Positions 1,752 to 26,397 of a DNA stretch of 38,428 bases are shown here, one piece after another (the stretch's first letter is position 1; every line of letters starts with the position of its first letter). Below the pieces are notes generated by a model that had not been told where the DNA came from, did not search any database, and was given only the letters and a program-made list of their open reading frames with translations. Position numbers and translations under genes: made by a program. The DNA is from Clostridia bacterium (GTDB lineage: Bacteria > Bacillota > Clostridia > Christensenellales > Aristaeellaceae): the NCBI GenBank assembly GCA_017448975.1, contig JAFSKN010000033.1, forward strand, positions 1-38,428. The letters run 5' to 3'.

Positions 1752-2564
1752 TCATGGCCGCGTTTTGGGCAGGGTGTGAAGGATGCGGCGGGCTTCCTCC
1801 GGGGCTGCGGCCTCCAGGCCCATGGCATGAATGAGCTGCACCAGGCGCTCCACTACCTGCCAATTATATTGGGCGTATTCGCCGGGAGCCAGGTAAGCGC
1901 TATCCTCAAAACCGATGCGTACCACGGACGCGCCCAGCGCCATGGCCCCGGCCAGGAAATCCCAGTTGTCCCGCCCGAAATGGGTCACGCCCCAGCGAGC
2001 GTCCGCGGGCACGGCGGAGCGGAACGCGGTCAGGCAGGTCATGTCCGGCTGCATACCGCCCTGGTGGCCGAACACCAGGTTGTAGAAGATGGGGCGGCGG
2101 TAGGGCGTGCGCTGAGCGCTGCGCTCGATGTTGCAGATCATGCCGATATCGAACACCTCCACCTCGGGAATGATGCCCCTGTCATAGCTTTGCCTGGCGC
2201 AGTAATCGATGTCGGCATCCGTATTCACATATAACGCGCCGTTCAAGTTGGTGCTGCCGCCGTTCAGGGAGGAGCTTTCCACCCGCCAATAGTTCAGCGG
2301 ATGGCAGCGTTCCTCGATGGTCATGCTGGAAATGCCCCCGGTGGAGGCCTGCACTACGACGTCGGTGCGTTTCAGGATTTCTTCAAAGGTGTCGATGAAT
2401 TCAGCCGTATCGGGGGTCAGGCTGCCATCCGGGCGGCGGCAGTGGAGATGGCACATACCCGCGCCTTTTTCCACACATTTTTTCACGTCCTCCGCCAGGG
2501 CGATTTTATCAATGGGAGTTCCGGCCTTCACCGGCGCCAGGGAAATAATAATTTTTCGGGACAT
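1752..2564 (-). CDS. DUF849 / BKACE family beta-keto acid cleavage enzyme
   Basis: A 270-residue TIM-barrel protein of the 3-keto-5-aminohexanoate cleavage enzyme family. Characterised members are zinc enzymes that split a beta-keto acid with acetyl-CoA, giving acetoacetate and a new CoA ester. The zinc pair is seen in CHLHCR (H39, H41). The conserved RIGFED segment provides R216, the third ligand E220, and D221. Length is normal for the family. The start has GAGGAGG about 8 nt upstream. It is the last gene of the minus operon, 18 nt after the DUF1537 kinase, and is followed by a terminator. The substrate cannot be read from sequence; context suggests an intermediate of sugar-acid breakdown. 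Confidence 0.85.
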   Translation of the reverse strand: MSRKIIISLAPVKAGTPIDKIALAEDVKKCVEKGAGMCHLHCRRPDGSLTPDTAEFIDTFEEILKRTDVVVQASTGGISSMTIEERCHPLNYWRVESSSLNGGSTNLNGALYVNTDADIDYCARQSYDRGIIPEVEVFDIGMICNIERSAQRTPYRRPIFYNLVFGHQGGMQPDMTCLTAFRSAVPADARWGVTHFGRDNWDFLAGAMALGASVVRIGFEDSAYLAPGEYAQYNWQVVERLVQLIHAMGLEAAAPEEARRILHTLPKTRP

Positions 2565-2582: not shown

Positions 2583-4034
2583 TCAGCACAGGGTTTCCAC
2601 GATATTCCGCAGCGTGTCCGCCCCGCCCACGTTGCCAGGGAAAATGACGTAGGACAGGCCGGGAAACAGACTTTCTTTTCCCGTTTTCCATACGGGAATA
2701 CCGGGGGCCGCCTGGCCCAGCACCAGCGCCTTTTTCACCCGCAGGGCTTTCACCCCCACGTCGCTGGATGTGATGCCGCCTTTGGCGATGAGGAACCGTG
2801 GCCGGAAGGACAGGGAAGAAACCACGCCCGTCAGCGCATTGGAAATATTCACGGAGATTTCCAGCATTTTTTCCGGATTCATGCCCTCCGGCGCGATGAG
2901 CGTACGGCTGGTATAGACCACCGCTGTTTTCCCCTGCTTCATGGCTTCCTCGGCCAAAGCGGTCATCCGCTTGGTTTCCTGCGACAGGGCCCCTTCCCGG
3001 CTCCAGCCGCTGACGTCAAATTCAAGGAAGGACAGCGGAGCGGAGGATTCCCGAAGGCAGTTCAATTGATCCGTGGTTTTCTTCACATGGGAACCCACAA
3101 TCACAAGGCCGCCAAACGTTGAAGATACGTCGATCATTTCCTCCCGGGACAGCAGGGGCCGGTCCTCCACGTGTCCGAATACCTTGGGCACCGCCGCGGC
3201 GCTGCGGAGCATGTAATGCCGCCCCTGCCGAATCAGGCGCATCAGCACCACGGCCAGGGCCATTACGTCCGTTTCTTCCAGGGCGTCGCAAACAATGTAT
3301 CGATATCCTTCCGCGTTTCGCAGTTTTTCTTCCATCGCCTGCCATTGAAGGCCCCGAAGCTCCGCAAGAGAAAGCACGATCACCTGATCGGCCCGGATTC
3401 TTCCACCGGATTTTTCCTCAATATACTCCGGCAAATAGGAATGATGATAGCCAAAGGTCTTATCCCTGGCAAATTCCGTTTGAGCCGCGGGGGTCAGCTG
3501 ATCCCCCTCCTTCACGTAATGCACGCCGTTCAGGGTAAAGCGTCCCCCTTCCCGGAAGAAGGGGCACAGCACCTCCCCGGCAAAGGCAGGGTGACCGTTT
3601 TCTTCCAAAGCCCGGCGCAGTGTTTCCGTTTCCAGAGGATAGTGCCCCCGCAGGGTGGAATCTCCCCGGGAGATCACGGTGAGCGTCTTTCCGGCTTTTC
3701 GGGCCGCCCGACAGGCGTTTGCAGCAATTTCCCGGTGTACCATTTCGGTTTTTTCCGCGGAAAAGCTTCGGGAATTGGTGAGTACGAAAAACATGCGGCA
3801 ATCCCGCATGGCGTCCGTCAGGGTGTCTTCCCGCCAATCGGTGACCACGGGAATATTGTGCACCGTCTGTACGCCGGTGGGATCGTCGTCCAGCACCATG
3901 ACCTGGCTGTGAAATCCGGCGTACGTTTCATCATACATGCGGCGCACGGTTTCCCGGGCGTTCTCAGTTGCCCACAGCTTTTCGCAATCCGCGAAGGCTT
4001 CCGCTGCGTTCAGGGGCTTGAAGTGTTCGTCCAT
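2583..4034 (-). CDS. Four-carbon acid sugar kinase family protein (DUF1537)
   Basis: A 483-residue cytoplasmic kinase of the DUF1537 family, whose members phosphorylate small sugar acids such as 3- or 4-carbon aldonates and 3-oxo acids. Family marks are VLDDDPTGVQTVH (residues 47-59), ISRGDSTLRGHYPLE (121-135) and, in the C-terminal nucleotide-binding domain, KGGITSSDVGVKAL (418-431) and YVIFPGNVGG near the end. The start overlaps nothing but lies 4 nt after the GH127 stop, with its GGGAGG site inside the end of GH127, so the two are translationally coupled. As I recall, a member of this family (3-oxo-isoapionate kinase) acts in the oxidative apiose pathway, but the other enzymes of that route are not seen here. 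Substrate undetermined. Confidence 0.9.
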   Translation of the reverse strand: MDEHFKPLNAAEAFADCEKLWATENARETVRRMYDETYAGFHSQVMVLDDDPTGVQTVHNIPVVTDWREDTLTDAMRDCRMFFVLTNSRSFSAEKTEMVHREIAANACRAARKAGKTLTVISRGDSTLRGHYPLETETLRRALEENGHPAFAGEVLCPFFREGGRFTLNGVHYVKEGDQLTPAAQTEFARDKTFGYHHSYLPEYIEEKSGGRIRADQVIVLSLAELRGLQWQAMEEKLRNAEGYRYIVCDALEETDVMALAVVLMRLIRQGRHYMLRSAAAVPKVFGHVEDRPLLSREEMIDVSSTFGGLVIVGSHVKKTTDQLNCLRESSAPLSFLEFDVSGWSREGALSQETKRMTALAEEAMKQGKTAVVYTSRTLIAPEGMNPEKMLEISVNISNALTGVVSSLSFRPRFLIAKGGITSSDVGVKALRVKKALVLGQAAPGIPVWKTGKESLFPGLSYVIFPGNVGGADTLRNIVETLC

Positions 4035-4038
4035 GTTC

Positions 4039-5988
4039 TCATACCTCCCGCCAGGCCAGGGGCATCCAGATCAGCATTTCGCCCCGTCCCCGGTTATCCC
4101 AGGCGTAATAGGGAATCAGCCGCGCTTTCACCGTTCGGATCGGTGCCGCATTCAGGGTGCGGTATAGGCTTTCCCGTTTTTCAGCAGGCACATCCCGGCA
4201 CAGCAGGGTGGTTTCATAACCCGGCACCGTGCGCCCGTCTATGGTTAATTCTGTTTTCTCAAACTTGGGGTTTGCGGGCAGCATCAGATCCTGCAGGCTT
4301 TCCGCCTCCGGCGCGTCCAGGTATTCGAAACAGTACACCAGCGGCCCCGCTTCCACGGCAGCCCGGCCCCGATCCTCCTCGATCATGCCGTTGCCCACGG
4401 TGAGCCGCGGCGCAGCGGGCAGGCGCAGCGCGCAGGAGAAGCCCTCCCCCGCCGGAACAGCAGCGTACGATCCGGCTTGTAATTCCTGCGTTTTGCCATC
4501 AAGGATCAATTCAGCCCCTTCCGCCCATGCGGGAACGCGCAGATGCAGAAGGAAGGGAATCCCGTTGCTGTCTTTTATGGTAAAGAGAATTTTTCCATCG
4601 AAGGGATAATCCGTTTCCTGGCACAGCGTAAAGGCTGCGCCGTTTTTCAGCGCGAACGCCGCCGTGCTTGCCCCATACAGCCCCGTCCACACGCCGTTTT
4701 CATCCGCGGCATAGGCGTATTCCGCGGTCTGCGCCAAGGTGCGGGCCAGGTTGGGCGGGCAGCAGTAGCTGGTAATATATTCGGTGCGTTCCTGTCCCCA
4801 CAGCAATTCATAGGCCAATTCCTTGGCCCGCTCCAGCATGTTTTCGTAGAAGAATTTTTTGCCGTTCAGGCTGATGCCCGCCATGTTTACGTTCAGGATC
4901 ATGCGCTCCAGCATGTCCATATACTCTGCCCGAGGCTCCATCAGGAACATGCGCCAAGCCCAGAACACCCCGCCCAGGGACGCGCAGGTTTCGTTGTAGG
5001 CGGTAATATTGGGCAGCTGATATTCGTAGCCGTAGGCCTGGTGCACCAGCTGGTGATGAAAGAAATTGCCGTAGGGCGACGCGCCGTTGTACAGCGCCCC
5101 GCAGCCGCCGGTCAGGTACATTTTCTGGGTGACCAAATGGTTCCATACGGACGTCAAAACTTCCCGGTAATCCTTATCGCCCGTTTCCATATACAGGTCA
5201 GTGACACCGGCGTACAGGTAATTGGCCCGCACGGCGTGACCCACGATTTTACGGTGCTGCTTTAAGGGCAGGCGGTCCTGGTTGTCATCCAGACCGTTTT
5301 TCACGGAATCCCGCAGCTCCACCACCAGCTTCGCCAGGTCCAGATATTCCTTCTTTCCGGTGGTGCGGTACAGCTCGATCAGGCCCATGTAGTGGGAAGG
5401 ACACACGGCGGTTTTCACTTCGCCCGTGCGGGCCGCTTCCTCATACAGATTTTTCAGATAACCGGCGGTTTTTTCGGCCACCTTCAAAAAGCTGTCCTTC
5501 CCCGTCAGGCGGTAGTACAGGCAGGCGGAGGTGAACATGTGGCCCATGTTGTACACCTCAAAATCGTTGATGTCCCCTTGCCGCATGGGGCCCTTTCCCT
5601 GCTTTTCGCCGATGATCTGCTTGGTGGAAAGATAGCCGTCGGGCTGCTGGGCCCGGGAAAACAGAGCGATATAATCCTCCAGCTGGTCCAACAGCTTTTC
5701 ATTCCCGGTCTTTACGGCTGTATAAACTGCGGCCTCGAACCACTTGTAAAAATCTCCGTCGCCAAATACCGTGCCGTCAAATCTTCCTTCCGCTTCCCCG
5801 GCGGCAATGCGGAAATTTTCCACTACATGGCTGATGTCCTTTTCCTCGAACATGCGCTGCAGGTGGGGCACGGTAACGGCGGCCACGGTGTCGAACCTTT
5901 CCTTGTACAGGCCGCCCGTCCACGCTACGTCTTTGTAAGGGATCGCGGACAGCCGGGCGTAAGGAGAACGGGAAGTATCGGTGATCAT
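4039..5988 (-). CDS. GH127 glycoside hydrolase (beta-L-arabinofuranosidase or aceric acid hydrolase type)
   Basis: A 649-residue (alpha/alpha)6-barrel protein (DUF1680) with a C-terminal beta-sandwich. It keeps the GH127 catalytic set, NETCAS (E333, C335) and SYCCPPN (C409, C410), where three Cys and one Glu hold zinc and one Cys acts as nucleophile. Known GH127 enzymes remove beta-L-arabinofuranose; one Bacteroides member acts on aceric acid in rhamnogalacturonan II. There is no signal peptide, so it works in the cytoplasm. Its ATG overlaps the stop of the racemase-like gene (ATGA), and it is coupled to the DUF1537 kinase downstream. That tight link to acid-sugar enzymes makes an acidic sugar substrate worth considering. 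Confidence 0.92.
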   Translation of the reverse strand: MITDTSRSPYARLSAIPYKDVAWTGGLYKERFDTVAAVTVPHLQRMFEEKDISHVVENFRIAAGEAEGRFDGTVFGDGDFYKWFEAAVYTAVKTGNEKLLDQLEDYIALFSRAQQPDGYLSTKQIIGEKQGKGPMRQGDINDFEVYNMGHMFTSACLYYRLTGKDSFLKVAEKTAGYLKNLYEEAARTGEVKTAVCPSHYMGLIELYRTTGKKEYLDLAKLVVELRDSVKNGLDDNQDRLPLKQHRKIVGHAVRANYLYAGVTDLYMETGDKDYREVLTSVWNHLVTQKMYLTGGCGALYNGASPYGNFFHHQLVHQAYGYEYQLPNITAYNETCASLGGVFWAWRMFLMEPRAEYMDMLERMILNVNMAGISLNGKKFFYENMLERAKELAYELLWGQERTEYITSYCCPPNLARTLAQTAEYAYAADENGVWTGLYGASTAAFALKNGAAFTLCQETDYPFDGKILFTIKDSNGIPFLLHLRVPAWAEGAELILDGKTQELQAGSYAAVPAGEGFSCALRLPAAPRLTVGNGMIEEDRGRAAVEAGPLVYCFEYLDAPEAESLQDLMLPANPKFEKTELTIDGRTVPGYETTLLCRDVPAEKRESLYRTLNAAPIRTVKARLIPYYAWDNRGRGEMLIWMPLAWREV

Positions 5989-6656
5989 GCCATCAATCCT
6001 TTCGCCTGCAGCGCTTTTTTCAGTTCAATCGCGCCAAACCGGGGGCTGGACAGGGTGGGTTTTCCGACAGCGTTTTCAATATCCTGTTCCACATAGGCCA
6101 TGGAGCCCTGGGCCAGCACGATCACATCCACCTGATCGGCGATTTTTTCCGCCGCACCAATGAGCAGGGCACGGAATTGCTCCTGATCCAAGTTGAAAGC
6201 GTCCACCAGGCCGTCCACCAGCTCCACATGCTTTCCCATTTCCCGGGCGGTGCGCAGAATGGTGTTTTTGGTGGGCTCCAGGGTGGTGGCCAGGGTGGCC
6301 AGCACGCCCACGCGGCTGCCCAGCCGGGCCGCCTCCCGGCACATTTCTTCATCAATACGCACCACCGGCACCCCAATATACCGGGCGGCTGGCTGGAACG
6401 CGTCCGCAACCTCGCCCACGGAGGAGCAGATGTTCAGGATCGCGTCCGCGCCTTGCTGCACGGCGGCGGCATACATACCGATGAGCCTTGCCGCCGCACC
6501 GGGGGTTACATAACCCGCCTGCCGTACTTCCCCAATGATGGTTGGGTCGGCGCTGCTGATTATTTCCGCGTCTGGGCCAATGTTTTTTCTTACTTCCTGT
6601 TCCACCAGTTCAATCAGCTCCGGGGTCGTACCGGTATACACCAATGCTACTTTCAT
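5985..6656 (-). CDS. Aspartate/glutamate/hydantoin racemase superfamily protein, second catalytic Cys missing
   Basis: A 223-residue protein with the two-domain Asp/Glu racemase fold. The first catalytic Cys is present in ILNICSSVGE (C77). The second position, in VIVLAQGSMAY, is Ser185 instead of Cys, so classical two-base racemization is doubtful. An isomerase, decarboxylase-like or hydrolytic role on a small keto or hydroxy acid is possible. The ATG has an AGGAG site about 9 nt upstream. It is 16 nt after the FGGY kinase and overlaps the GH127 start by 4 nt. Its place between sugar kinase, GH127, DUF1537 and DUF849 genes argues for a step in carbohydrate-acid breakdown rather than amino acid metabolism. 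Confidence 0.82.
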   Translation of the reverse strand: MKVALVYTGTTPELIELVEQEVRKNIGPDAEIISSADPTIIGEVRQAGYVTPGAAARLIGMYAAAVQQGADAILNICSSVGEVADAFQPAARYIGVPVVRIDEEMCREAARLGSRVGVLATLATTLEPTKNTILRTAREMGKHVELVDGLVDAFNLDQEQFRALLIGAAEKIADQVDVIVLAQGSMAYVEQDIENAVGKPTLSSPRFGAIELKKALQAKGLMA

Positions 6657-6672
6657 GGATTGTCACTCCTTT

Positions 6673-8139
6673 TTATAGAATCCTGCGAACGGCTTCCTTC
6701 CATCCCGCATGTTTTTCCTGCCGGGTTGTTTCGTCCATCCGGGGTTCATAACGGAAGTACCGGTTGTTTTCAAAAATGCTGTCATCGTACAGGCCCAAGG
6801 CCATGCCCGCGGCGTAAGCCACGCCCATGCAGGACAGTTCCTCCGCCTCCGGCACCAGCACGGGGCTTTTCAGCATATCGCTTTGAAACTGCATGAGCCA
6901 CTTGTTCCGGCTGGGGCCGCCGTCCACCCGAAGTTCGATTTCGGGGATATTCGCTTCCTGCTGCATCAATTGCACGATGTCGGTGATCTGGTAGGCGATG
7001 GCCTCCAGCCCGGCCCGTACCAGTTCGGCCCGGCCCGTGGTGCGGCTCATGCCGATAAACGCGGCGGAAACGTCGCTGCGCCAGTAAGGCGCGCCCAGAC
7101 CGGAGAAAGCGGGTACCAGATAGGTTTTGTCGCTGGGATTGGCCTGCTCCGCCAGCGCCTGGGATTCGGCGGCGGTTTTCAGCAGCCCAGCCTGATCCTT
7201 GAGCCAGGTGACGATAGCCCCGGAATAATTCACATTGCCTTCCAGAGTATAGTTGACCTGCCCTTTCAGCTTCCAGGCCAGGGAAGTGACGATGCCGCGC
7301 TGGGACAGGATGGGCTTTTCCCCGATGTTCATCATGATGGAGGAGCCGGTGCCGTAGCTCACCTTCAGCATTCCTTCGGTCAGGCAGCCCTGGGCGAACA
7401 GCGCGGCGTGGGAATCTCCCATGACGCAATGGATGGGAACGGGTGCGGGCAGAGCACCGCCAAAATCGGTGTATCCGAACAGCCCGTCCGAGTCTGTCAA
7501 TTGTGCCATGCAGCAGGCGGGAATGTCGAACAGCGACAGCAGCTCCTCATCCCATTGCAGGGTATGGATGTTGAAAAGCTGAGTGCGGGAAGCGTTGGAA
7601 TCATCCGTGCGGAATTCTTTTCCCCCCGTCAGGCGGAACACCACATAGCTGTCCATGGTGCCGCAGCAGATTTCGCCCTTCTCCGCCCGTTCTTTGATCC
7701 CTGGCACGTTCCGCAGTATCCAGGCCAGCTTGGCGGCGGAAAAATAGGGCGACAGCTTCAGCCCTGTTTTCTGCTGTACGGTTTCCGCGTGATCCTCCAG
7801 GCTGTCGCAGATGGCCGCGCCCCGGGCGCATTGCCAGACCACGGCGTTGTATACCGGCTTTCCGGTCGCCCGCTCCCACATCACCGACGTTTCCCGCTGG
7901 TTGCTGATGCTCACCGCCGCGATGTTTTGGGGATCGACGCCCGTTTTTTCGATCAGCTCCGGAATCAGGGCCAGCAGATTTTGATATATTTCCTCCGGAT
8001 CGTGCTCCACGTAGCCCCGCTCGTCGATGATCTGGCGATGGGGCCTGTCCACCCGCAGGCAGATATGGCCCTGGCTGTCAAACAGCAGGGCCTTGGTGCT
8101 CTGGGTGCTTTGATCGATCGCTATCAGATAGGACGCCAT
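6673..8139 (-). CDS. FGGY-family carbohydrate kinase, glycerol-kinase-like (candidate apulose kinase)
   Basis: A 488-residue ATP-dependent sugar kinase of the FGGY family. It shows the N-terminal phosphate loop IDQSTQSTKAL (8-18), NQRET (80-84), W102, PYFSAAK (131-137) and the C-terminal GLGAPYW and VDGGPSRN motifs. R82, E83, W102 and Y132 match the substrate-contact residues of glycerol kinase. At the GDQQA position of glycerol kinase it has GDSHA (D242, S243), so the substrate is probably not plain glycerol. The start at 8139 is chosen over 8211 because the family begins at MASYLIAID, with GGTGAG upstream. It follows the transketolase C-terminal gene by 7 nt. Beside a FucI-like isomerase and split transketolase it is the expected kinase of the non-oxidative apiose pathway. 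Confidence 0.88.
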   Translation of the reverse strand: MASYLIAIDQSTQSTKALLFDSQGHICLRVDRPHRQIIDERGYVEHDPEEIYQNLLALIPELIEKTGVDPQNIAAVSISNQRETSVMWERATGKPVYNAVVWQCARGAAICDSLEDHAETVQQKTGLKLSPYFSAAKLAWILRNVPGIKERAEKGEICCGTMDSYVVFRLTGGKEFRTDDSNASRTQLFNIHTLQWDEELLSLFDIPACCMAQLTDSDGLFGYTDFGGALPAPVPIHCVMGDSHAALFAQGCLTEGMLKVSYGTGSSIMMNIGEKPILSQRGIVTSLAWKLKGQVNYTLEGNVNYSGAIVTWLKDQAGLLKTAAESQALAEQANPSDKTYLVPAFSGLGAPYWRSDVSAAFIGMSRTTGRAELVRAGLEAIAYQITDIVQLMQQEANIPEIELRVDGGPSRNKWLMQFQSDMLKSPVLVPEAEELSCMGVAYAAGMALGLYDDSIFENNRYFRYEPRMDETTRQEKHAGWKEAVRRIL

Positions 8140-8146
8140 CGTATGC

Positions 8147-9082
8147 TCACCCTTTCCATATTTCAAGAACGGTTTTGACGATGCCCGGGCCTGTGAGCCC
8201 GTAATATTCAAACACTTCTTTGGATGCGCCGGTAATCACGGGACTGTCCGGCAAGGCCAGGTTGATCACCTTTTTCGGGTCGTTGGCGCTGATTGCCTGG
8301 GCCACCATGGAGCCCAGCCCGCCGAATGGCGCGTGCTCCTCCACAGTGACGATCAGGCGCTTGCCTTTGGCGGCTTTCAGCAATCCTTCTTTATCCAGGG
8401 GCTTGACGCAGTACATGTCCAGCGCGCCGGTGGAAATACCCTGGCTGTTCAGCAGCTTGGCCGCTTCCTGGATGGGGCGTACCATTTCGCCGCAGGCCAC
8501 CAGCAGCACGTCCGTACCCTCGGACAGCACGGTGGCCTTGTTCATTTCAAAGGGCACGTTATTTTCCTCGTACACATCCTCCACCGGGTTCCGGCCCAGG
8601 CGGATGTAAGCGGTTTGCGTATCCTGCAAAAGAGCTTCAAACAGCTTCCGGGTCTGATGGCGGTCAGAAGGCAGATACACCCGCATGCCGGGGATAGCGC
8701 TCATGGCGGCGATGTCCTGGGCGGAATGATGGGTCATGCCCAGGGCCCCGTAGCTGACGCCGCCGGAGATGCCCACCAGCTTCACATTGGTGTTGGAATA
8801 GGCACAGTCCACCTTGCACTGCTCGTAGCTGCGGGTGCTGATGAAGGAGGCGGGAGAAACGGCGAAGGACTTTTTGCCACAGGAGGCCAGGCCCGCGGCA
8901 ATGCTGACCAGGTTCTGCTCCGCAATGCCCACTTCCACGAACTGCTGGGGGTAAGTATCGGCGAAGGAGGTCATGCTGCCGCTGCCCCGGCTGTCGCTGC
9001 ACAGCACGACAACATTTCTGTCTTTCGCCGCCGCTTCCTTCAACACTTCGCACATGACGGCCCGATTGGGAATCTTATTCAC
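8147..9082 (-). CDS. Transketolase C-terminal subunit (pyrimidine and C-terminal domains)
   Basis: A 311-residue protein covering the pyrimidine-binding and C-terminal domains of transketolase. The catalytic Glu that activates thiamine diphosphate is E55 in VEVGIAEQNL, and the conserved SYEQ, GVSYGALGMTHHSAQD and EEHAPFGGLGS segments follow. It pairs with the N-terminal subunit gene just upstream, overlapping it by 8 nt. The start codon is GTG at 9082. Split transketolases of this kind include AptA/AptB of apiose degradation, which act on apulose 4-phosphate with glyceraldehyde 3-phosphate to give dihydroxyacetone phosphate and xylulose 5-phosphate, as I recall the published pathway. The neighbouring isomerase and kinase fit this, but sequence alone does not exclude a general transketolase role. 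Confidence 0.93.
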   Translation of the reverse strand: MNKIPNRAVMCEVLKEAAAKDRNVVVLCSDSRGSGSMTSFADTYPQQFVEVGIAEQNLVSIAAGLASCGKKSFAVSPASFISTRSYEQCKVDCAYSNTNVKLVGISGGVSYGALGMTHHSAQDIAAMSAIPGMRVYLPSDRHQTRKLFEALLQDTQTAYIRLGRNPVEDVYEENNVPFEMNKATVLSEGTDVLLVACGEMVRPIQEAAKLLNSQGISTGALDMYCVKPLDKEGLLKAAKGKRLIVTVEEHAPFGGLGSMVAQAISANDPKKVINLALPDSPVITGASKEVFEYYGLTGPGIVKTVLEIWKG

Positions 9083-9905
9083 GAAGCAGCGCCTCCTTCC
9101 GTTCTTTCAGTTCCTTACTGATCGCGGCGTATTCCTCGACGTTGGGCAAATGATGATGCCAGGAGGCCTTATTTTCCATGAGCACGGAGCCCTTGCCCTT
9201 GACGGTGTTGGCGATGATCACCGTGGGCATTCCCTTTGTATTCTCCGCTTCGTCAAAAGCGGCGTTCAGCTGCTCCACGTCGTTGCCGTCCTGCACGTCG
9301 ATCACATGCCAGTCAAACGCGGCAAAGCGGGCGTGCAGATCGTGATGGGCCATCACGTCCTCCGTGCTGCCGGAAATCTGCAAATGGTTCCGGTCAATGA
9401 CGGCGCACAGGTTTTCCAGCTTATAGTGGCCCGCCGCCATCGTCCCTTCCCACACGGAGCCCTCCGCCAGTTCCCCGTCGCCCATCAGGGTGTACACCCG
9501 ATAATTCTGTTGATCCATCCGGCCTGCCAGCGCCATGCCGACACAAACAGAAAGGCCGTGGCCCAGGGAGCCGGAATTCATTTCGATGCCGGGCAGGGTG
9601 TTGTGGGGATGGCCGATGTATTCGCTGCCGAATTTGGAAAACTGCGATTTGACTTCTTCAATATTCAAAAAGCCCTTATCCGCCAGCACGGCGTACAGCG
9701 TTTCCACGCAATGGCCCTTGCTGAGCACAAACCGGTCCCGGTCCGGGTCGTTCTGCTTTTCGGGAGATACATTCATGCGGCTGTACAGCGTCAGCATGAT
9801 TTCCATGCTGCTCATATCCCCGCCGATGTGCCCGCCCCCGCCGGACACGATGATGTCCAGCACGTCCTGGCGCAGGTCATAGGCTTTTACTGTTAAAGGA
9901 TTCAT
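9075..9905 (-). CDS. Transketolase N-terminal subunit (thiamine diphosphate binding)
   Basis: A 276-residue protein with the transketolase diphosphate-binding domain. Visible are GHIGGDMSS (25-33), LSKGH (61-65), GSLGHGLS (112-119) and the thiamine diphosphate motif GDGELAEGS...N (142-173), which binds magnesium and diphosphate. The start at 9905 (MNPLTVKAYD) is preferred over an ATG at 10034 because the extra 43 residues come from a non-coding palindromic spacer. It overlaps the C-terminal subunit by 8 nt, so the two halves are probably made in equal amounts. It lies after the FucI-like isomerase gene, separated by a 20-bp hairpin. The best guess is apulose-4-phosphate transketolase. Confidence 0.93.
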   Translation of the reverse strand: MNPLTVKAYDLRQDVLDIIVSGGGGHIGGDMSSMEIMLTLYSRMNVSPEKQNDPDRDRFVLSKGHCVETLYAVLADKGFLNIEEVKSQFSKFGSEYIGHPHNTLPGIEMNSGSLGHGLSVCVGMALAGRMDQQNYRVYTLMGDGELAEGSVWEGTMAAGHYKLENLCAVIDRNHLQISGSTEDVMAHHDLHARFAAFDWHVIDVQDGNDVEQLNAAFDEAENTKGMPTVIIANTVKGKGSVLMENKASWHHHLPNVEEYAAISKELKERKEALLRE

Positions 9906-9928
9906 AACAACCTCTCTATTCTTTTCTT

Positions 9929-9973
9929 CTGGGGGTAACCGCTCTTTGCAGTCCAAAGAGCGGTTTCCCCCAG
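9929..9973. repeat. Long intergenic hairpin inside the operon
   Basis: A 20-bp stem with one mismatch: CTGGGGGTAACCGCTCTTTG (9929-9948) with CAAAGAGCGGTTTCCCCCAG (9954-9973), loop CAGTC. On the minus transcript it lies between the isomerase and transketolase genes and is followed by a purine-rich stretch rather than T residues, so it is not a standard terminator. It could protect or cut the mRNA, or be a dispersed palindromic repeat. The otherwise gene-free interval is 9906-10030. Confidence 0.75.
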
Positions 9974-10030
9974 ACCCCTTTCCGAGAAAGACGCATTGGG
10001 ATATGTTTTTAATGATTGAGCTGATGACGC

Positions 10031-11455
10031 TCAAATCTCGTCAAAAGTTACATTTTCGCCGTGCAGATACGCCTTCACCTTGTCCTCGATGGGATCGTAC
10101 AGGTCGGGCGTGACACCGATGTACTTGCAGGCCTCGTACACGATGGGCACAATGTCGCCGTGAATGGCTGCCACATGATGGATGTAGGGGCCTTCCACCA
10201 CCTTGGCCTCCAGGCGCTTTAAGTTGTTCACTTCCACCCACACATAGGTGCCTCTCGTCCAGGGACCGTCGATGCCGCGGGCGTGGCCCAGGAGGATGCT
10301 GTATTCGCCCTCGTCTCCGTCAAAGCGCAGCAGGCTCATGAGGCCGTGCTTGGCCTCGGCGGATACCGCGCCGTTCTCCGGGAAGGCCACCGGCACGCAG
10401 ATGGTGGGCTTTTCCTTGGCGACGGAAATGGGCCAGGGGCCGCAATGCTGCAAAAGCTCACCATTGTCGTTGTCGGGGTGGCGCACCGTCCAGTCGCTGA
10501 ACATGACCCGGCGCTCGTTCATGCTGGCGGCTTCGGCCATGAGCTGGGAAATTGCGCCGTGAATGTCGGTTTCGCAGACCACCGGAATGCCCTCTTCATT
10601 AAGCAGGCTGTTGGCGGCGCAGGGCATGATGTGAATCTCGTCCTGCAAGGCATTCCAACACTGAATGGCGATGGCGTTGCAGCCGTATTTTTCCGCCAGG
10701 GCTTTCATGGCAACCTTCAGTTCCGCCACGTTCGCCAGATAATTGTCCTCGATTTTGCAGATCATGTTGGCCTTGCAGTAATCGACGACCTTCTGAACCT
10801 CCGATTTTTCCTCCCGCCATTTTTTCATTTCGGCGTACAGCTCAGGCAGCGGGATGGGGGCCAATTGAATATTGAATTTCTCCAGCAATTCCCCTTCATT
10901 GCACATGGTGGACCAGAAATCGAAGGGCCGGGGACCGATCTGCAAAATGCGGGTGTGGCGGAAAACACGCACCACATTGCACACCGCCAGGAAGTCTTTT
11001 ACGCCCCGCTCAAATTCCTTGTCTTCCAGGTTGCAGTTGTTCATATAGGTGAAGGGCACCCGGAACCGGCGCAGCACCTTGCCGGTGGCGAACAGGCCGC
11101 ATTGGCTGTCCCGCAGTCTCATGCCGTTGGCGTCGGGCCGCTCGTCCCGGGGGCCCCAGAGAAGCACAGGCACGTTCAGAGCCTTGGCCAGCCGGGCGCA
11201 TTCATATTCCGTGCCGAAATTGGCGTGGGGAATGAACAGGCCGTCCACCTTTTCCCGCCGAAATTTTTCGATGATCTTTTCCAGCCCCGCGTCGTCGTAA
11301 AGCAGGCCTTCTTCGTTGATGTCATCAATGTCCACAAAATCAATGTTCAATTCCCGCAGCCGGTTAGCGGTCAGCTTCCGGTATTCCACAGCGGCCGGGG
11401 CGCTGAAAATGGCCCGGCGGGTCGGGGCATAGCCCAGTTTGATGTGTGCGCTCAC
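10031..11455 (-). CDS. L-fucose/L-arabinose isomerase family protein (candidate D-apiose isomerase)
   Basis: A 474-residue protein of the FucI-like aldose-ketose isomerase family, which uses a divalent metal. Key stretches are QCWNALQDE (265-273) and VCETDIHGA (293-301), giving metal-ligand candidates E295 and D297, plus HHVAAIHGD (426-434) with the His ligand. No signal peptide. Its start has AGGGAGGATC upstream, and the gene follows GH78 by 32 nt. True FucI is usually nearer 590 residues, so this belongs to the shorter COG2407-type group with variable substrates. With an FGGY kinase and a split transketolase directly downstream and no fuculose-phosphate aldolase, an apiose-to-apulose reaction is more likely than fucose isomerization. 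Confidence 0.85.
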   Translation of the reverse strand: MSAHIKLGYAPTRRAIFSAPAAVEYRKLTANRLRELNIDFVDIDDINEEGLLYDDAGLEKIIEKFRREKVDGLFIPHANFGTEYECARLAKALNVPVLLWGPRDERPDANGMRLRDSQCGLFATGKVLRRFRVPFTYMNNCNLEDKEFERGVKDFLAVCNVVRVFRHTRILQIGPRPFDFWSTMCNEGELLEKFNIQLAPIPLPELYAEMKKWREEKSEVQKVVDYCKANMICKIEDNYLANVAELKVAMKALAEKYGCNAIAIQCWNALQDEIHIMPCAANSLLNEEGIPVVCETDIHGAISQLMAEAASMNERRVMFSDWTVRHPDNDNGELLQHCGPWPISVAKEKPTICVPVAFPENGAVSAEAKHGLMSLLRFDGDEGEYSILLGHARGIDGPWTRGTYVWVEVNNLKRLEAKVVEGPYIHHVAAIHGDIVPIVYEACKYIGVTPDLYDPIEDKVKAYLHGENVTFDEI

Positions 11456-11487: not shown

Positions 11488-14262
11488 TTATTCATTCAAT
11501 TGATAAGTGACCGTCCATGTGCCGGAGCCGGTTTCGGCCTGCCATTGGCCTTGGCCGTTCCGGACAAAGCTCAGCTCGCTTTCCGGATTTTCCGCGCCTT
11601 TTTCCAGAATGATGGACGCGGAAGCGTTCACCGGCGCCCGCGCCGTTAACGTGATTTTTCCTTCGTCCCGCGTCCAATGAGAAGATACGGGGCCGTATAC
11701 GCTGTCGTATTCCCCCCGGACCCAGGCAAGGCCTCCGCCGGTCTGAGGCGCGATGACGGCATGGCGGTAACCGGGCTGAGCCTCGTCAATTTCCAATCCT
11801 GCCGCCGCCCGGTACAGCCATTCGCCGATGGCTCCGTAGGCGTAATGATTGAAGGAATTCATGTCCGGGCTCCACATGGCGCCGTCGGGCTTCAAGCCGT
11901 CCCAATGCTCCCAAATAGTGGTAGCCCCGGCCTTGACCTGATACAGCCAGGAGGGGAAATCCTCTTTCAGCAAAAGATCATAGGCTTCCTTTTTGCAGCC
12001 GTTCTGGCTGAGCGCGTGGCAAAAATAGGGCGTGCCCACAAAGCCGGTGACCAGATGGCCGTTTTCTTTTTTCAGCAATCGCTTCAGCCCTTCCACCGTG
12101 CCGGGGATTCCCTTTTCCGGAATCAAACGGAAGTACAGGGCCACAATGTGGGCTGTCTGGGTCTGCACGGTCATGACGCCGTTTTCGTCCAGGAAAGCGC
12201 TTTGGAACTTGTCCGCGATTTTTTCATAAAGCGCCGTATACTCCCGGGCAAGCGCGTCCCTTTTCAAAGCCTTGCAGATTTTCACGAACAGGCCTGTGGA
12301 ATAAGCGAAGTAGGCGGTGCAGGTGAGATCGTTGGGGGTCGCGCCCCAATAGCTGCCGTCCTCCGCGTCCAGGGCCACCCAATCGCCGAACTGCAGCTTA
12401 TAATTCCAGATATAATCCTTGGCGTGGTCCCGCATAAAATCGATCCAGGCCTTCATGCTGTCAAACTGATCTTGAAGCACCCGGGTATCCCCATACGTCA
12501 GATACAGCGTCCAGGGCAGAATCACCGCCACGTCCGCCCAGGCCGCGGCGGAATGGATGCCCTGGCTGAGCAGCCAATCCTGCGTGGCGGGGAAGTATTG
12601 CAATTGGTTGGGCACCATATGGGGCACGCCGCCTTCGGCTTTTTGCTGGTCGATGGCCACGTCCCGCAGCCATTTGCGGTAGAAAGCATAGGTATTGCGC
12701 AGGAAAGAGGCGGTACGGCAGAAAATCTGAGCGTCCCCCGTCCAGCCCATGCGCTCGTCCCGCTGGGGGCAGTCCGTGGGAATATCCAGGAAATTGCCCC
12801 GCAGACTCCATTCGATATTGCTTTCCAATTGATTTATGAGGGGATTGGAGCAGGAAAAACGCCCGGTTTTCGCCATCTGGGAATGAATGACGCAGGCGGC
12901 AAAATTTTCTTTTTTGATTTCCTCCGGCCATTCCTGGATCAAAGCGTAGCGGAAGCCCTGGAAGGAAAAGCGCTCATCATAAGTGATCGGCTGATCATCC
13001 CGGCAGATAAAACGGATTTCCGCCAGCGCTCCCCGCAGATTGTCAAAGTAGGCGTTGCCTGCCGCGTCCAGGGTTTCAAAGCAGCAAAGATGCGCCAGGG
13101 CCCCCGTTTTGCCCCGCACAGTAAAGCGCACGTGACCCGTCAGGTTCTGGCCGAAGTCCAGCACGGTTTCTCCCTTGGGGGTTTTCAAAATTTCCCGCAC
13201 CGGCAGTTCGCGCAGGATTTTCGGCCGGGAAGCGGCCTGCGGCGTGAGGATGCCAAGGGGTACGCTGACGGTATCCACGGGCCGCCACAGAATGTCTTTT
13301 GGGCGGTATTCCTGGGCGAAGCGGCGCTGGGCAGTTTTTTCCTCGTCGGTGTAGCTTTCTTTCAGGCGATTCAGCAAAGGGGGAACAGGCGGCTCGTTCC
13401 GCGCTCCGCCCCTTTGCGGCGCAAAGCCCGGCGCGTTCCAGCCAGGCTGCTCCAGCCGGGCGTCGTACCGTTCGCCGTCATAAATCTCGGAGAAGGTCAC
13501 GGGCGACGCGCAGCCCAGCCAGCTTTCATCCGTGACGACGGTTTCCTCCGTGCCGTCCTGATAGCGAATCGTTAATTGGGCCATTAGCGCGGTGCGGTTC
13601 CCATAGGTGCAGCGCTCGTGCACAAAGCCCATCATGCCCTTGTACCAGCCCGCGCCTACATGGGCTCCCAGCACGTTTTCACCCTGCCGGAGAAGCCTGG
13701 TCGCTTCCCAGGTCTGGTAGCACAGATGCTCGTGATAGCTGGTCCAGCCGGGCAGGAACTGTTCTTCGTTTACCTGTTCGCCGTTTATATAGACGTGATA
13801 CAGGCCCAGCGCGGTGGCGCACACATAGGCTTCCTTCACGGGCTTTTCGATGCGCCAGCTTTTGCGAAGATAGGTGCCCTTGGAATTGACCCAGTCGTTT
13901 TCCGTTTCTGCGGTAATGAAGGTTCCTTTCCAGCGCCCGCCTGTCATGCCGGTGAGAAAGGAAGCGGTTGCCCAGCCGCTTTCTTCCACTCCCGCCCATA
14001 CCTTTGCCCGGATAAAATACTTCCGGCAGGGAAGCAGGGAAACATCCGGCAGCGGAACTGAACGGGATTCGTCGCTGTCCACCCGTCCGCTGTCGTACAG
14101 GGAATGTTCAAAAGTTTCCGTTTCAGCAAGCTGCCATTGATAGGCGCTTTGCCGCACGTTCCGCCCGTCGCTTTCCAACGCCCAGCCAAGCTGTGGCATT
14201 TCCTCCGCCCCCAGAAGCGGCTGATCCTGGTAATCCAATAATATTTTTTGAATGGCAATCAC
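11488..14262 (-). CDS. GH78 alpha-L-rhamnosidase
   Basis: A 924-residue protein with the full GH78 layout: N-terminal fibronectin-like and beta-sandwich domains (about 1-360, including the GWYKGMMGF lectin-like domain), an (alpha/alpha)6 catalytic barrel (about 460-820) and a C-terminal beta domain. The signature TDCPQRDERMGWTGD (496-510) holds the general-acid candidate E503, and WEHWDG holds E785. It removes terminal alpha-L-rhamnose. No signal peptide, so it acts on imported material. The start codon is GTG, overlapping the GH42 stop by 4 nt (GTGA). Rhamnose is abundant in pectin side chains and in plant flavonoid glycosides. Confidence 0.95.
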   Translation of the reverse strand: MIAIQKILLDYQDQPLLGAEEMPQLGWALESDGRNVRQSAYQWQLAETETFEHSLYDSGRVDSDESRSVPLPDVSLLPCRKYFIRAKVWAGVEESGWATASFLTGMTGGRWKGTFITAETENDWVNSKGTYLRKSWRIEKPVKEAYVCATALGLYHVYINGEQVNEEQFLPGWTSYHEHLCYQTWEATRLLRQGENVLGAHVGAGWYKGMMGFVHERCTYGNRTALMAQLTIRYQDGTEETVVTDESWLGCASPVTFSEIYDGERYDARLEQPGWNAPGFAPQRGGARNEPPVPPLLNRLKESYTDEEKTAQRRFAQEYRPKDILWRPVDTVSVPLGILTPQAASRPKILRELPVREILKTPKGETVLDFGQNLTGHVRFTVRGKTGALAHLCCFETLDAAGNAYFDNLRGALAEIRFICRDDQPITYDERFSFQGFRYALIQEWPEEIKKENFAACVIHSQMAKTGRFSCSNPLINQLESNIEWSLRGNFLDIPTDCPQRDERMGWTGDAQIFCRTASFLRNTYAFYRKWLRDVAIDQQKAEGGVPHMVPNQLQYFPATQDWLLSQGIHSAAAWADVAVILPWTLYLTYGDTRVLQDQFDSMKAWIDFMRDHAKDYIWNYKLQFGDWVALDAEDGSYWGATPNDLTCTAYFAYSTGLFVKICKALKRDALAREYTALYEKIADKFQSAFLDENGVMTVQTQTAHIVALYFRLIPEKGIPGTVEGLKRLLKKENGHLVTGFVGTPYFCHALSQNGCKKEAYDLLLKEDFPSWLYQVKAGATTIWEHWDGLKPDGAMWSPDMNSFNHYAYGAIGEWLYRAAAGLEIDEAQPGYRHAVIAPQTGGGLAWVRGEYDSVYGPVSSHWTRDEGKITLTARAPVNASASIILEKGAENPESELSFVRNGQGQWQAETGSGTWTVTYQLNE

Positions 14263-16295
14263 GGCAGTTCACACCCGTCCTTGTCCAGCCTGAGAATCCA
14301 CACGTCCCGGCCCCGGATGGTTTGCTTCCCGGATACGTATTCGTCCGTGATCCGGTTCGTCAGTTCCGCTTTGCCAAAATCCACCTGGGCGTCTTCGGGT
14401 TTATGGTTGATCACAAATATGGTGGTTCCCTTTTCGCCTACCCGGCGGGTGATTTCGATGCCGGGATCGGCGGAGAAAAGCCCTTTCAAGCCTGTATCGG
14501 CGCAGATCGCATGCAGCAGATCAGCAAGAAAAGCATCCTCCGGCTGCGTGCCGATATAATAGGCCATCCCTTTGCCAAAATGATTTTTAGCCGCGCAGGG
14601 TATTCCCGCATAGAAATCGCTTTCATAATGAGCCAGCGGTTGTGCGGAGCGGCAATGCAGCAAATCGCAAAGGAAGGTGCATTCGTAGCGTTCCTGGGGG
14701 AAGCCCGTGCTTCCTTCCATCACCATCCGGTTGTGTTCATCCAGCCGCAGCGCGTCCGTTTCCTCCACCCAGACGCCCAGCACGTCCCGCAGCTTGCCGG
14801 GGTATTCCCCGAACACGCACCGGTCGTTTTCGTCGGCCAGGCCACTCATGACGGTGGCGATCAGCGTGCCGCCGTTTTTCACATATTCGGTCAGGCGTTC
14901 CGCGACCCCGGGCTTTGTCATGTACAGCATGGGCGCCGCCACCAGGGAGTAACCGGAATAATCCGTATCGGCGGCGGGGTTCACAATATCCACCGGGATG
15001 TTTTGATCGTGGAAGGGCTTGTAATACCGGGCCAGGGTTTTCAGATAATCCATGTCCTTGCTGGGGCCGCTGGCAAGCTCCAGGGCCCACCAGTTGTTCC
15101 AGTCCATGAGCAGGGCGGCCTTGGCCGGGGTGCGGGCCCGGAGGAAGGAATCGCCCAGCGCTTTCAGCTCATGGCCCAATTTTTCCGCCTCCCGGAACAC
15201 CCGGGTGTTTTCGTGCCCCGCGTGGCTGATGATGGCCCCGTGGAATTTTTCCTGCCCGGCCACGGATTGGCGCATCTGGAAAAACAGGCAGGTGTCCGCC
15301 CCGTGGGCCATGGCCTGATAGGACAAAAGGCGCACTTCCCCGGGCCGCTTTAATTTATTGTAGGGCTGCCAATTCTGCTGGTTGGGGGACTGTTCGGTGA
15401 GCACGAAGGACTGGCCGCCCTTAAGCCCCCGCATAATATCATGCTTCATGGCGACGAAATGGGGCGGGTCCTGGGGCCAGGGGTAATTGTCCCAGCCCAC
15501 CACGTCCATTTCTTTGGTGAAGGTGAACTGATCCAGCTTTTTGATAAAGCCGCTCATGTTGGTCAGGATAGGGATTTCGGGGTTGTAGCTTTTCAGCACG
15601 TCGTATTCATTTCGGAAACATTCTGCGGTGGAATCCGTCAGAAAACGCATGTAATCCAATTGAATGGCGGGATTGAAGCGGTAATCGTCGTTCAGCTCCG
15701 TGGGCAGGGTCACTTCCTCAAAGGAATACACCGTGCGGCCCCAGAAGGAAGTATGCCACCGTTCGTTCAGTCCTTCCACGCTGCCGTAGCGCCTGCGCAG
15801 CCACAGCCGGAATTTGGCCTGGCAGTTGGGGCAGTAGCAGCTTGTTCCGTATTCGTTGCTCACGTGCCACATGGCCAGGGCGGGGTGATGAGCATAGCGC
15901 TTCCCAAATTCATGGGCGATGGCGGCGGCCCGCTCCCGGTATTTCAGGCTGTTCACGCAGAAAAACACCCGCATGCCGTGGGTGCGCTTTCTGCCCTGAA
16001 TATCCACCGGCAGCACCTCGGGATACCGGGTTGACAGCCAGGCGGGCTGAGCGGTGGTGGGAGTAGCCAGGCAGACATAAATGCCGTTTGCCCAGATCGT
16101 GTCGATGATTTTGTCAAGCCAATCAAAATCGTACACACCCTCGTCCGGCTCCAGCTTAGCCCAGGAAAATACCGGCAATGTCAGCAGATTGATGCCCGCC
16201 TTTTTAAACAGGCGCATATCCTCCCGCAGCGTTTGTTCATCCCATTGGTCAGGGTTGTAGTCCCCGCCGTAATAGATCCGGTCCGCCTGCTTCAT
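14259..16295 (-). CDS. GH42 beta-galactosidase / alpha-L-arabinopyranosidase
   Basis: A 678-residue GH42 protein with TIM barrel, Rossmann-like middle domain and small C-terminal beta domain. The acid/base Glu is E148 in WHVSNEYG and the nucleophile is E301 in VLTEQSPNQQNW. Four Cys (C113, C153, C155, C158) form the zinc site seen in many GH42 enzymes. No signal peptide. The family cleaves terminal beta-D-galactose, and some members also alpha-L-arabinopyranose, which occurs on a galactose in rhamnogalacturonan II. The gene starts 15 nt after the LacI regulator and overlaps GH78, so all three are probably read from the lacI promoter as well as from the upstream one. Confidence 0.94.
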   Translation of the reverse strand: MKQADRIYYGGDYNPDQWDEQTLREDMRLFKKAGINLLTLPVFSWAKLEPDEGVYDFDWLDKIIDTIWANGIYVCLATPTTAQPAWLSTRYPEVLPVDIQGRKRTHGMRVFFCVNSLKYRERAAAIAHEFGKRYAHHPALAMWHVSNEYGTSCYCPNCQAKFRLWLRRRYGSVEGLNERWHTSFWGRTVYSFEEVTLPTELNDDYRFNPAIQLDYMRFLTDSTAECFRNEYDVLKSYNPEIPILTNMSGFIKKLDQFTFTKEMDVVGWDNYPWPQDPPHFVAMKHDIMRGLKGGQSFVLTEQSPNQQNWQPYNKLKRPGEVRLLSYQAMAHGADTCLFFQMRQSVAGQEKFHGAIISHAGHENTRVFREAEKLGHELKALGDSFLRARTPAKAALLMDWNNWWALELASGPSKDMDYLKTLARYYKPFHDQNIPVDIVNPAADTDYSGYSLVAAPMLYMTKPGVAERLTEYVKNGGTLIATVMSGLADENDRCVFGEYPGKLRDVLGVWVEETDALRLDEHNRMVMEGSTGFPQERYECTFLCDLLHCRSAQPLAHYESDFYAGIPCAAKNHFGKGMAYYIGTQPEDAFLADLLHAICADTGLKGLFSADPGIEITRRVGEKGTTIFVINHKPEDAQVDFGKAELTNRITDEYVSGKQTIRGRDVWILRLDKDGCELP

Positions 16296-17324: not shown

Positions 17325-17364
17325 AGGAAAAGCCCCTCTCATTTTGGTTTTTGCTTTCCTCTGT

Positions 17365-17393
17365 ATTATACAAAAGAAATAAACAAGCGTCAA
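17365..17393 (-). promoter_or_regulatory. Sigma-70-type promoter for lacI-GH42-GH78 and downstream genes
   Basis: On the minus strand TTGACG (plus 17388-17393) and a perfect TATAAT (plus 17365-17370) are 17 nt apart, about 41 nt upstream of the regulator's start codon. It lies directly after the GH2 stop codon at 17401. A CAATTG overlaps the -35 edge and also occurs at 26384-26389 in the divergent promoter region, possibly part of an operator. Confidence 0.85.
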
Positions 17394-26340: not shown

Positions 26341-26378
26341 AAGCATTCTCCTTTCACCCGGAAGATGAACGCAGATTA

Positions 26379-26397
26379 CTAAACAATTGCTAAACAA
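26379..26397. promoter_or_regulatory. Direct repeat, possible operator for the ABC operon
   Basis: CTAAACAA occurs twice, at 26379-26386 and 26390-26397, 11 bp apart, about one helical turn. It lies between the minus-strand -10 box and the lplB start, where a bound repressor would block transcription. The binding protein is not known; the LacI regulator is one candidate. Confidence 0.45.

Follow-up and report, generated by a model that had tools for sequence, protein, structure and literature searches.

We report that a 38,428-nucleotide stretch of DNA from a gut Clostridia bacterium (contig JAFSKN010000033.1; hereafter the window) carries four consecutive minus-strand genes (6673..11455) that very probably encode a non-oxidative D-apiose pathway of the published kind. 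They are followed on the same strand by a cassette of a racemase-superfamily protein, a glycoside hydrolase of family GH127, a DUF1537 kinase and a BKACE-family protein, which is rather likely to release and catabolise L-aceric acid. Judged from the sequence, the window reads as an import-and-degradation locus for rhamnogalacturonan-II (RG-II) in a Gram-positive bacterium, and the best overall explanation, with a probability of roughly 0.75, is an apiose pathway inside an RG-II locus together with an aceric acid cassette. RG-II, the most complex pectin, contains two branched sugars, apiose and aceric acid; the hydrolases freeing both are known, as is the catabolism of apiose, and the aceric acid gene set is apparently undescribed. 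Searches of open-access PMC text, to the exclusion of subscription papers and preprints, turned up no description of a route for aceric acid catabolism or of a Gram-positive RG-II locus. A locus importing and cutting RG-II fragments, with both routes in a single operon, would open the use of RG-II by Gram-positive gut bacteria to experiment and would give functions to subfamilies of racemase-like, DUF1537 and BKACE proteins.

A putative non-oxidative D-apiose pathway

In the direction of transcription, the four genes encode a FucI/AraA-like sugar isomerase (iso, 10031..11455), the N-terminal (tktN, 9075..9905) and C-terminal (tktC, 8147..9082) subunits of a transketolase, and an FGGY kinase (6673..8136). 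We propose these to be a D-apiose isomerase (ApsI-like), the AptA and AptB subunits of an apulose-4-phosphate transketolase, and a D-apulose kinase (AplK-like) rather than a glycerol kinase. The initial annotation had proposed this pathway from the consecutive isomerase, two-subunit transketolase and kinase, and the open reading frames (ORFs), strand and order are as it described, with no aldolase among the four genes by Pfam and ORF reading of 6673..11455. The isomerase would convert apiose to apulose and the kinase would yield apulose 4-phosphate, from which the transketolase would transfer a two-carbon unit to glyceraldehyde 3-phosphate, giving dihydroxyacetone phosphate (DHAP) and xylulose 5-phosphate. 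The ORF finder probably placed the TTG starts of the kinase (8211) and of tktN (10034) too far upstream; comparison with relatives favours 8136/8139 and 9905.

The E. coli SE15 genes ECSF_RS02670 to RS02715 were used as a yardstick, with AplK picked via its FGGY annotation. In PMC13001218 these genes are used as an apiose cluster; three E. coli strains and E. fergusonii with the cluster grow on apiose (SE15 itself is not reported there), the E. coli cluster is described as lacking apsI, and apiose use by Clostridia is already stated. The tktN (Transketolase_N 184.7 bits) and tktC (Transket_pyr 102.9 bits, Transketolase_C 98.3 bits) products are 40.6% and 35.8% identical to SE15 AptA and AptB, respectively, and the window's genome also contains a full-length transketolase. 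In trees of 35 (tktN) and 34 (tktC) rows, SE15 AptA and AptB group with the iso-operon subunits, apart from the transketolases of loci containing the racemase-superfamily gene (race).

The kinase matches FGGY_N (215.8 bits) and FGGY_C (123.6 bits) in Pfam. It passes the GlpK subfamily model NF000756 (570 bits versus a cut-off of 498) and scores below the GlpK equivalog TIGR01311 (559.7 bits versus 590.35 required). A separate, clear GlpK is present in the window's genome, scoring 737 bits in a GlpK model search versus 572 for the operon kinase. Across 12 genomes, GlpK-model matches over the cut-off comprise one group at 728–878 bits, ten iso-operon kinases at 554–619 bits, and one further match at 522.6 bits (G269). 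A tree of 41 rows, with very distant FGGY kinases as outgroups, separates SE15 AplK and 22 iso-operon or related kinases from 15 GlpK-like proteins, with Shimodaira–Hasegawa-like approximate likelihood ratio test (SH-aLRT) values of 86 and 88. The positions of Gln246 and Phe270 of E. coli GlpK (numbered without Met), which we take to line the glycerol pocket, are both Ser (Ser/Ser) in AplK and in each of these 22 kinases; the GlpK-like rows have Gln and Phe in 14 of 15 cases and Gln and Val in the remaining one. On tree side and Ser/Ser pocket, a glycerol kinase role for the operon kinase was rejected; assignment from raw identity alone is misleading. Two apulose-kinase-like proteins at L187:15198-16685 and L188:8485-9948 carry the public annotation 'glycerol kinase'; the Ser/Ser pocket seen in the 22 tree rows may serve to tell such proteins apart. 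We suggest that 'glycerol kinase' annotations beside split transketolases denote apulose kinases.

The isomerase scores 20.3 bits against Fucose_iso_C, below the cut-off of 29.3, and its only NCBIfam match is sulfoquinovose isomerase (117.8 bits, far under the cut-off of 700). A profile built from 12 sequences matches a solved L-arabinose isomerase with an E-value of 2e-4. A Rahnella plasmid encodes an isomerase 28% identical to that of the window (E-value 8e-39), located between aptAB and the kinase. The plasmid order is binding protein-DUF2291-ATPase-permease, regulator, aptA-aptB, isomerase and kinase, with aptB 76.5% identical to SE15 AptB. Selenocysteine in iso was considered and rejected: an in-frame TGA seemed to occur in eight orthologs, and in the four that were aligned it follows residue 467 and is the natural stop.

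Link between the apiose genes and apiosidase

A GH140-like apiosidase (30720..32027, plus strand; PF13204 320.4 bits) is encoded in the divergent operon, as had been claimed. The arrangement exceeds what chance would give. Orthologs of iso (88–100% identity) occur in 13 of 100 genomes of relatives, including that of the window; in G046 the ortholog is in two pieces (88 and 84%). The genes tktN-tktC-kinase follow iso in 11 of the 12 other genomes; no transketolase was found after iso in G044, where the contig ends ~1.8 kb downstream. A PF13204 match above 200 bits was present in 10/13 genomes with iso versus 5/87 without (Fisher p 4e-8, kinship ignored). This count leaves out weaker matches, among them those of G070 and G097, which reach 173.5 bits, and numerous ones around 60 bits. 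Two of the three iso genomes without a strong match have a weak PF13204 protein on the contig of the core genes, in one case directly after the kinase.

An iso ortholog (70–74%) was detected in 10 of 15 race-carrying genomes tested, all ten with iso-tktN-tktC-kinase and eight with a LacI-type gene adjoining iso. One of the ten, L152, also has an importer related by homology to the SE15 one (53, 50, 24 and 41% identity). In Acetatifactor a GH140 gene lies directly after the apiose kinase, and in Monoglobus a weaker PF13204 match (60 bits) follows it. Listeria monocytogenes NCTC7974 (L188:5296-12696) carries LacI / iso-transketolase-transketolase-'glycerol kinase'-PTS-DUF4038, the last with 282 bits to PF13204; this is a probable locus for apiose or apioside utilisation with a phosphotransferase system (PTS) importer. 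Among the papers listed by a literature search on Listeria and apiose, none treats the subject, judging from titles and opening lines of abstracts. In G005/G025 (L020-L023), GH127 directly follows the apulose kinase, with no race, DUF1537 or BKACE in the stretch that was fetched; downstream are a class V aminotransferase-like gene and another FucI-like isomerase, a distant one.

Several points weigh against the apiose assignment. The kinase is slightly nearer to the GlpK of its own genome (42.4% identity) than to SE15 AplK (38.4%). The Apt grouping has SH-aLRT values of 99 (tktN) and 82 (tktC) with long SE15 branches; the AplK and Apt groupings together span 82–99 with long reference branches, and the tktN AptA group also takes in L030, a transketolase whose locus is of another kind. 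It could be argued that the substrate of the four genes is a different ketose (erythrulose, xylulose, or glycerol plus a pentose) and the apiosidase a bystander, given that the kinase exceeds the GlpK subfamily cut-off, that the isomerase family includes quite different enzymes, and that the 97% complete genome of G054 holds the four genes and gave no match to PF13204. We regard this as very improbable: the kinase tree and pocket residues and the transketolase trees point to apiose, and the apiosidase neighbours that recur among unrelated Firmicutes argue against it, as does the SE15-type importer of L152. By the initial annotation's own criterion, clustering of kinase and transketolase with glycerol, erythritol or xylulose families would have refuted the pathway; as far as sequence allows, such clustering was not observed in the trees. 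The non-oxidative D-apiose assignment is supported by kinase pocket and tree, transketolase trees, Rahnella isomerase and apiosidase adjacency, and we hold this prediction with high confidence.

The race-GH127-DUF1537-BKACE cassette

Beyond the kinase, the minus-strand run continues with race (5985..6656), an Asp/Glu/hydantoin-racemase superfamily protein by Pfam for which alignments and gene contexts suggest a step in an aceric acid pathway; an aceric-acid-hydrolase-like GH127 (4039..5988), with no signal peptide by eye; a DUF1537 (SBD_N/NBD_C) acid-sugar kinase (2583..4034), proposed to act on acerulose or a 5-deoxypentulose; and a BKACE (DUF849) family protein (1752..2564). The gh127 gene overlaps race by 4 bp and is separated from DUF1537 by 4 bp.

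The only NCBIfam match of GH127 is the aceric acid hydrolase model NF049879 (740 bits), and its best solved relative is 5mqo (534 bits), which we take to be BT_1003; the next is a GH127 arabinofuranosidase (322 bits). In an alignment of 38 race rows, C77 of the first motif is present in all, and the position of the second cysteine of hydantoin racemase is Gln in all. C106 (36/38) and a Cys at 182 (7/38) lie off the aligned catalytic positions. As two-cysteine racemases have one catalytic cysteine per motif, race is not a two-cysteine Asp/Glu racemase by the aligned catalytic positions; its profile matches to hydantoin/allantoin racemases are weak (E-values 0.004–0.011). DUF1537 gives weak NCBIfam matches to threonate kinase and 3-oxo-tetronate kinase and was also placed by a tree. 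The BKACE protein scores below the Kce equivalog NF052387 (200.3 bits versus 382); its residues H39, H41, R198, E220 and D221, aligned to 2y7d, are invariant in 25 rows, with HxH and E presumably the metal ligands, and R and D catalytic.

Distribution of the cassette

Named genomes were scanned with a race profile, and the best 80 of 163 matches were analysed as loci of at most ~20 kb; strict order was defined as race-gh127-duf1537-bkace within 7 kb. GH127 is present in 38 of the 80 race loci (51–98% identical to that of the window) and the strict order in 26, which come from Lachnospiraceae, Oscillospiraceae and relatives of the window. The extra genes (ORFs of at least 100 residues) inside the 26 strict loci are GntR-like regulators, in five only. 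DUF1537 and BKACE occur together in 53/80 loci. As iso lies within the locus in only 7 of the 38 GH127-holding cases, the cassette is separable from the apiose genes.

Samples centred on the other genes give a similar picture. GH127 scoring above 600 bits was found in 11 of 200 genomes of the window's family, and DUF1537 of at least 67% identity in six, adjoining GH127 in all six. Six of the 11 GH127 genomes carry race, GH127 and DUF1537, with BKACE next in all but G046, whose contig stops at DUF1537. In G042 the three catabolic genes lie ~18 kb from GH127, and in G227 race occurs with transketolase, transaldolase and cupin genes. No cassette catabolic genes were found near GH127 in the 35, 14 and 5.8 kb fetched for G005, G142 and G248. 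A BKACE of at least 50% identity was detected in two of 391 genomes of the class, that of the window and G555 of another family, and adjoins GH127 in both; in G555 gh127, bkace, race and duf1537 lie next to one another. Five of the 391 (the window's, G555, G625, G455 and G498) have a GH127 scoring above 600 bits, and G498 has none of the cassette or transketolase-type genes beside GH127 in the 35 kb examined. In a BKACE tree of 59 rows, 28/30 members of the window's clade have GH127 in the locus versus 2/29 in the sister clade, and the genome of L068, one of the two remaining members, has GH127 elsewhere. To account for the GH127 label, the race, BKACE and DUF1537 trees require 8, 5 and 4 changes, respectively.

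A different gene set accompanies race in 11/80 loci, which hold a transketolase, TIM-barrel isomerase or transaldolase of a second type; L064 was left out, as its subunit is 92% identical to that of the window and part of a truncated apiose run. None of the 80 race loci joins DUF1537 and BKACE with second-type genes, L135 having BKACE and transaldolase; neither set is present in 16/80, ten of which are shorter than 14 kb. In G625/G455 (L192:8411-15593, L194/L195), race-TIM isomerase-tktN-tktC-GntR-like-transaldolase-GH127 form one compact run, and no apiose genes were found in these stretches. The transketolases of G625/G455, L082, L108 and L115 are 65–92% identical to one another and 32–40% to those of the window and SE15, and therefore constitute a separate family. 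In a genus of the same family as the window, L049:3041-9945 and L059 carry a gh127-race-tktN-tktC-transaldolase-cupin run, with gh140 next in L049; no FGGY kinase was found in the run, which is possibly a kinase-free route.

Among the 42 race loci without GH127, 23 contain tripartite ATP-independent periplasmic (TRAP) importer genes, and GH127 and TRAP genes occur together in L108, L109 and L115. The TRAP label covers clustered DctP/DctQ/DctM only, so some loci labelled 'other' may hold other transporters; a Sporomusa race locus has an SBF-type transporter. The TRAP-linked, GH127-free loci may serve the uptake of free aceric acid, or of a different acid. In Succinatimonas hippei (L093:6333-14329), race lies between otnK/otnC/otnI-like genes (otnK-like by Pfam, the other two judged from their sequences) and a TRAP importer with BKACE; the substrate there may be another acid. 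An iron-dependent alcohol dehydrogenase-like protein is encoded near BKACE in L043:2035-3390 (Pfam), L064:7398-8765 (70% to L043) and L072:16566-17927 (54%).

Proposed aceric acid route and alternatives

We consider it rather likely, from homology and gene order, that the cassette releases and catabolises L-aceric acid. GH127 would free L-aceric acid from RG-II. In its open 2-ketose form, aceric acid is a beta-keto acid whose alpha carbon is quaternary, and race would strip the branch carboxyl to give a 5-deoxypentulose. Arylmalonate-decarboxylase-type enzymes protonate from one side using one catalytic cysteine, and the single motif cysteine of race could likewise support one-sided protonation after decarboxylation. 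DUF1537 would then phosphorylate C1 of the 5-deoxypentulose, and BKACE or a rhamnulose/fuculose-phosphate aldolase would cleave the product to DHAP and acetaldehyde. The ordinary nature of the 5-deoxypentulose would explain how two unrelated downstream gene sets can follow the same race. The cassette would thus exist in a form with the DUF1537 kinase and a BKACE-family lyase, and in another in which a dedicated two-subunit transketolase, a transaldolase and often a TIM-barrel isomerase replace these. We give even odds to the wider proposal that this is the first candidate L-aceric acid pathway, with two interchangeable Firmicutes forms sharing GH127 and a racemase-like decarboxylase, and with the TRAP-linked GH127-free loci as scavengers of free aceric acid. 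The role of race as the decarboxylase, drawn by analogy, is tentative and less likely than not, and its likelihood was lowered slightly because other cysteines were found in part of the family.

The aceric acid reading faces a number of contrary observations. GH127 scores below the NF049879 equivalog cut-off of 950 bits, which was passed in none of the searched sets of 200, 42 and 391 genomes and in 1/14 control genomes. GH127 is missing from 42/80 race loci; of the 42 corresponding genomes, 38 lack any GH127 scoring above 600 bits, which rules out race as a marker exclusive to GH127 carriers. Conversely, GH127 occurs without race in the G005/G025 and G498 stretches, and the G555 race match is just 35% over 300 bases. 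C106 and Cys182 keep two-cysteine or other mechanisms possible. No isomerase gene lies inside the unit in the 26 strict loci. Finally, the textbook BKACE reaction would not be possible at a quaternary alpha carbon; the step order and chemistry may differ from our scheme, because the acetyl-CoA-dependent reaction needs an alpha hydrogen.

The lack of an isomerase inside the strict units could be accommodated if race were itself the aldose-ketose isomerase of aceric acid, with BKACE as a metal-dependent decarboxylase or retro-aldolase and DUF1537 acting between them. The kept BKACE residues and the lack of a TIM-barrel isomerase in six second-type loci of at least 14 kb (L082, L083, L106, L108, L121, L135) would fit this, but race would be redundant beside the separate TIM-barrel isomerase of L115, L192, L195, L087 and L132, and the iso ortholog elsewhere in 10/15 race genomes could act on aceric acid; we regard the arrangement as doubtful. 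Other substrates are also conceivable. Were the cassette to handle 3-deoxy-D-lyxo-heptulosaric acid (Dha) or 3-deoxy-D-manno-octulosonic acid (Kdo), an aldolase would yield pyruvate and a smaller acid or sugar, and the four-carbon acid from Dha would, in its 3-oxo form, be a classical DUF1537 substrate. Known DUF1537 enzymes phosphorylate four-carbon acid sugars, and the weak NCBIfam matches, the otn-like genes and TRAP importer beside the Succinatimonas race and the BT_1020-like gene of the window are in keeping with this. Against it, within the ~20 kb at most that each locus covers, a BT_1020-like match occurs in 1/80 race loci (L066) versus 38/80 for GH127, and the G625/G455 runs have GH127 with no BT_1020-like match in the stretches examined, making Dha or Kdo an unlikely substrate. 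It is less probable still that GH127 and race have no common substrate and are inherited together as passengers in pectin loci. Such loci do collect many unrelated sugar genes, the race tree requires 8 changes of the GH127 label and 42/80 race loci have no GH127; however, the same four-gene order recurs in 26 loci across Lachnospiraceae, Oscillospiraceae and relatives of the window, and the GH127-, DUF1537- and BKACE-centred samples give the same link.

Probable rhamnogalacturonan-II setting and locus organisation

The RG-II reading follows from the combination of GH140 with GH127, BT_1020-like, 5mqr and glucuronidase/arabinofuranosidase-type matches. By homology, the RG-II-specific hydrolase set comprises the apiosidase, GH127, and enzymes of BT_1020 and glucuronidase/arabinofuranosidase type, two of the models scoring below their curated cut-offs. 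The BT_1020-like hydrolase (34224..36056, plus; N-terminal part) aligns to 5mqr residues 28–614 (424 bits) and to the Pfam BT_1020 propeller (PF24067, 260.6 bits). The gene at 29703..30713 (plus) resembles the N-terminal part of the beta-glucuronidase/beta-L-arabinofuranosidase model NF049877 (127 bits over profile positions 27–336 of 1400, cut-off 1800), presumably making it GH137-like.

The minus-strand genes form a run from 26397 to 1752 with intergenic gaps of at most 164 bp and several overlaps of 4–8 bp, and the transcription unit around the apiose genes exceeds 6673..11455. The run opens with two permeases of the ATP-binding cassette (ABC) type (25375..26397 and 24445..25362; Pfam) and a probable solute-binding lipoprotein of the importer (22682..24370), which has no Pfam match and is named from its place beside them. 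Next come a SASA carbohydrate esterase (21120..22517), a GH29 alpha-L-fucosidase-like protein (19696..21123), a GH2 glycosidase (17401..19689; Pfam, NCBIfam), a LacI-family regulator (16311..17393; Pfam, NCBIfam), a GH42 beta-galactosidase-like protein (14259..16295) and a GH78 alpha-L-rhamnosidase-like protein (11488..14262), the others by Pfam, ahead of the isomerase, tktN, tktC, kinase, race, GH127, DUF1537 and BKACE genes. The divergent plus-strand run consists of a weak GH106-like rhamnosidase (26641..29706; PF17132 21.1 bits, cut-off 29; NCBIfam), the GH137-like protein, the apiosidase, an MGH1-like glycosidase by Pfam (32058..34208), which weakly resembles the C-terminal part of 5mqr (51 bits), and the BT_1020-like hydrolase. 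The link of apiosidase, importer and pathway in one locus thus holds as first noted; its rank as the strongest signal of the window is arguable, given that the GH127/race/DUF1537/BKACE part is less known.

Comparison with known systems

The non-oxidative D-apiose pathway was reportedly described by Carter et al. in 2018, and an account of it is given in PMC13001218. The window shares with it the isomerase, apulose kinase and two-subunit apulose-4-phosphate transketolase, the lack of an aldolase, and homology to the SE15 and Rahnella genes. Unlike such clusters, the window has its genes inside an operon of RG-II glycosidases, with other permeases replacing the ribose-type importer, a LacI regulator, and an operon that runs into another catabolic cassette. 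RG-II utilisation loci of Bacteroides thetaiotaomicron are said to have been described by Ndeh et al. in 2017, and we take their families to include GH140, aceric-acid GH127, BT_1020-like, GH137-like, GH106, GH78 and GH2. Enzymes of all these kinds are found in the window, which differs in being Gram-positive, in having ABC permeases and no SusCD pair, and in including monosaccharide catabolic genes. We know of no report of such catabolic genes in Bacteroides RG-II loci.

The 3-oxo-isoapionate pathways employ a DUF1537 kinase, OiaK, and RuBisCO-like proteins. The cassette resembles these in its DUF1537 kinase and in a branched beta-keto acid intermediate, and differs in having BKACE and race and, among the genes described above, no RuBisCO-like protein. 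A BKACE family protein has also been proposed for a sugar-derived beta-keto acid; in PMC6365646 the support is genetic, and the authors state that direct evidence of cleavage is lacking. In contrast to the window, the substrate of that system has an alpha-CH2, and the genes listed for it include neither DUF1537 nor race. RG-II loci in rumen Bacteroidetes are mentioned in PMC6118326.

The closest named contigs to the window are bins of uncultured Clostridiales or Clostridia, several with animal gut sample names. No tRNA genes were found in the window. Past the BT_1020-like gene, a match to an IS4/5-type transposase (DUF4096) lies at 36211-36913, and the C-terminal part of a GH38 protein at 37619-38428 is cut by the window end.

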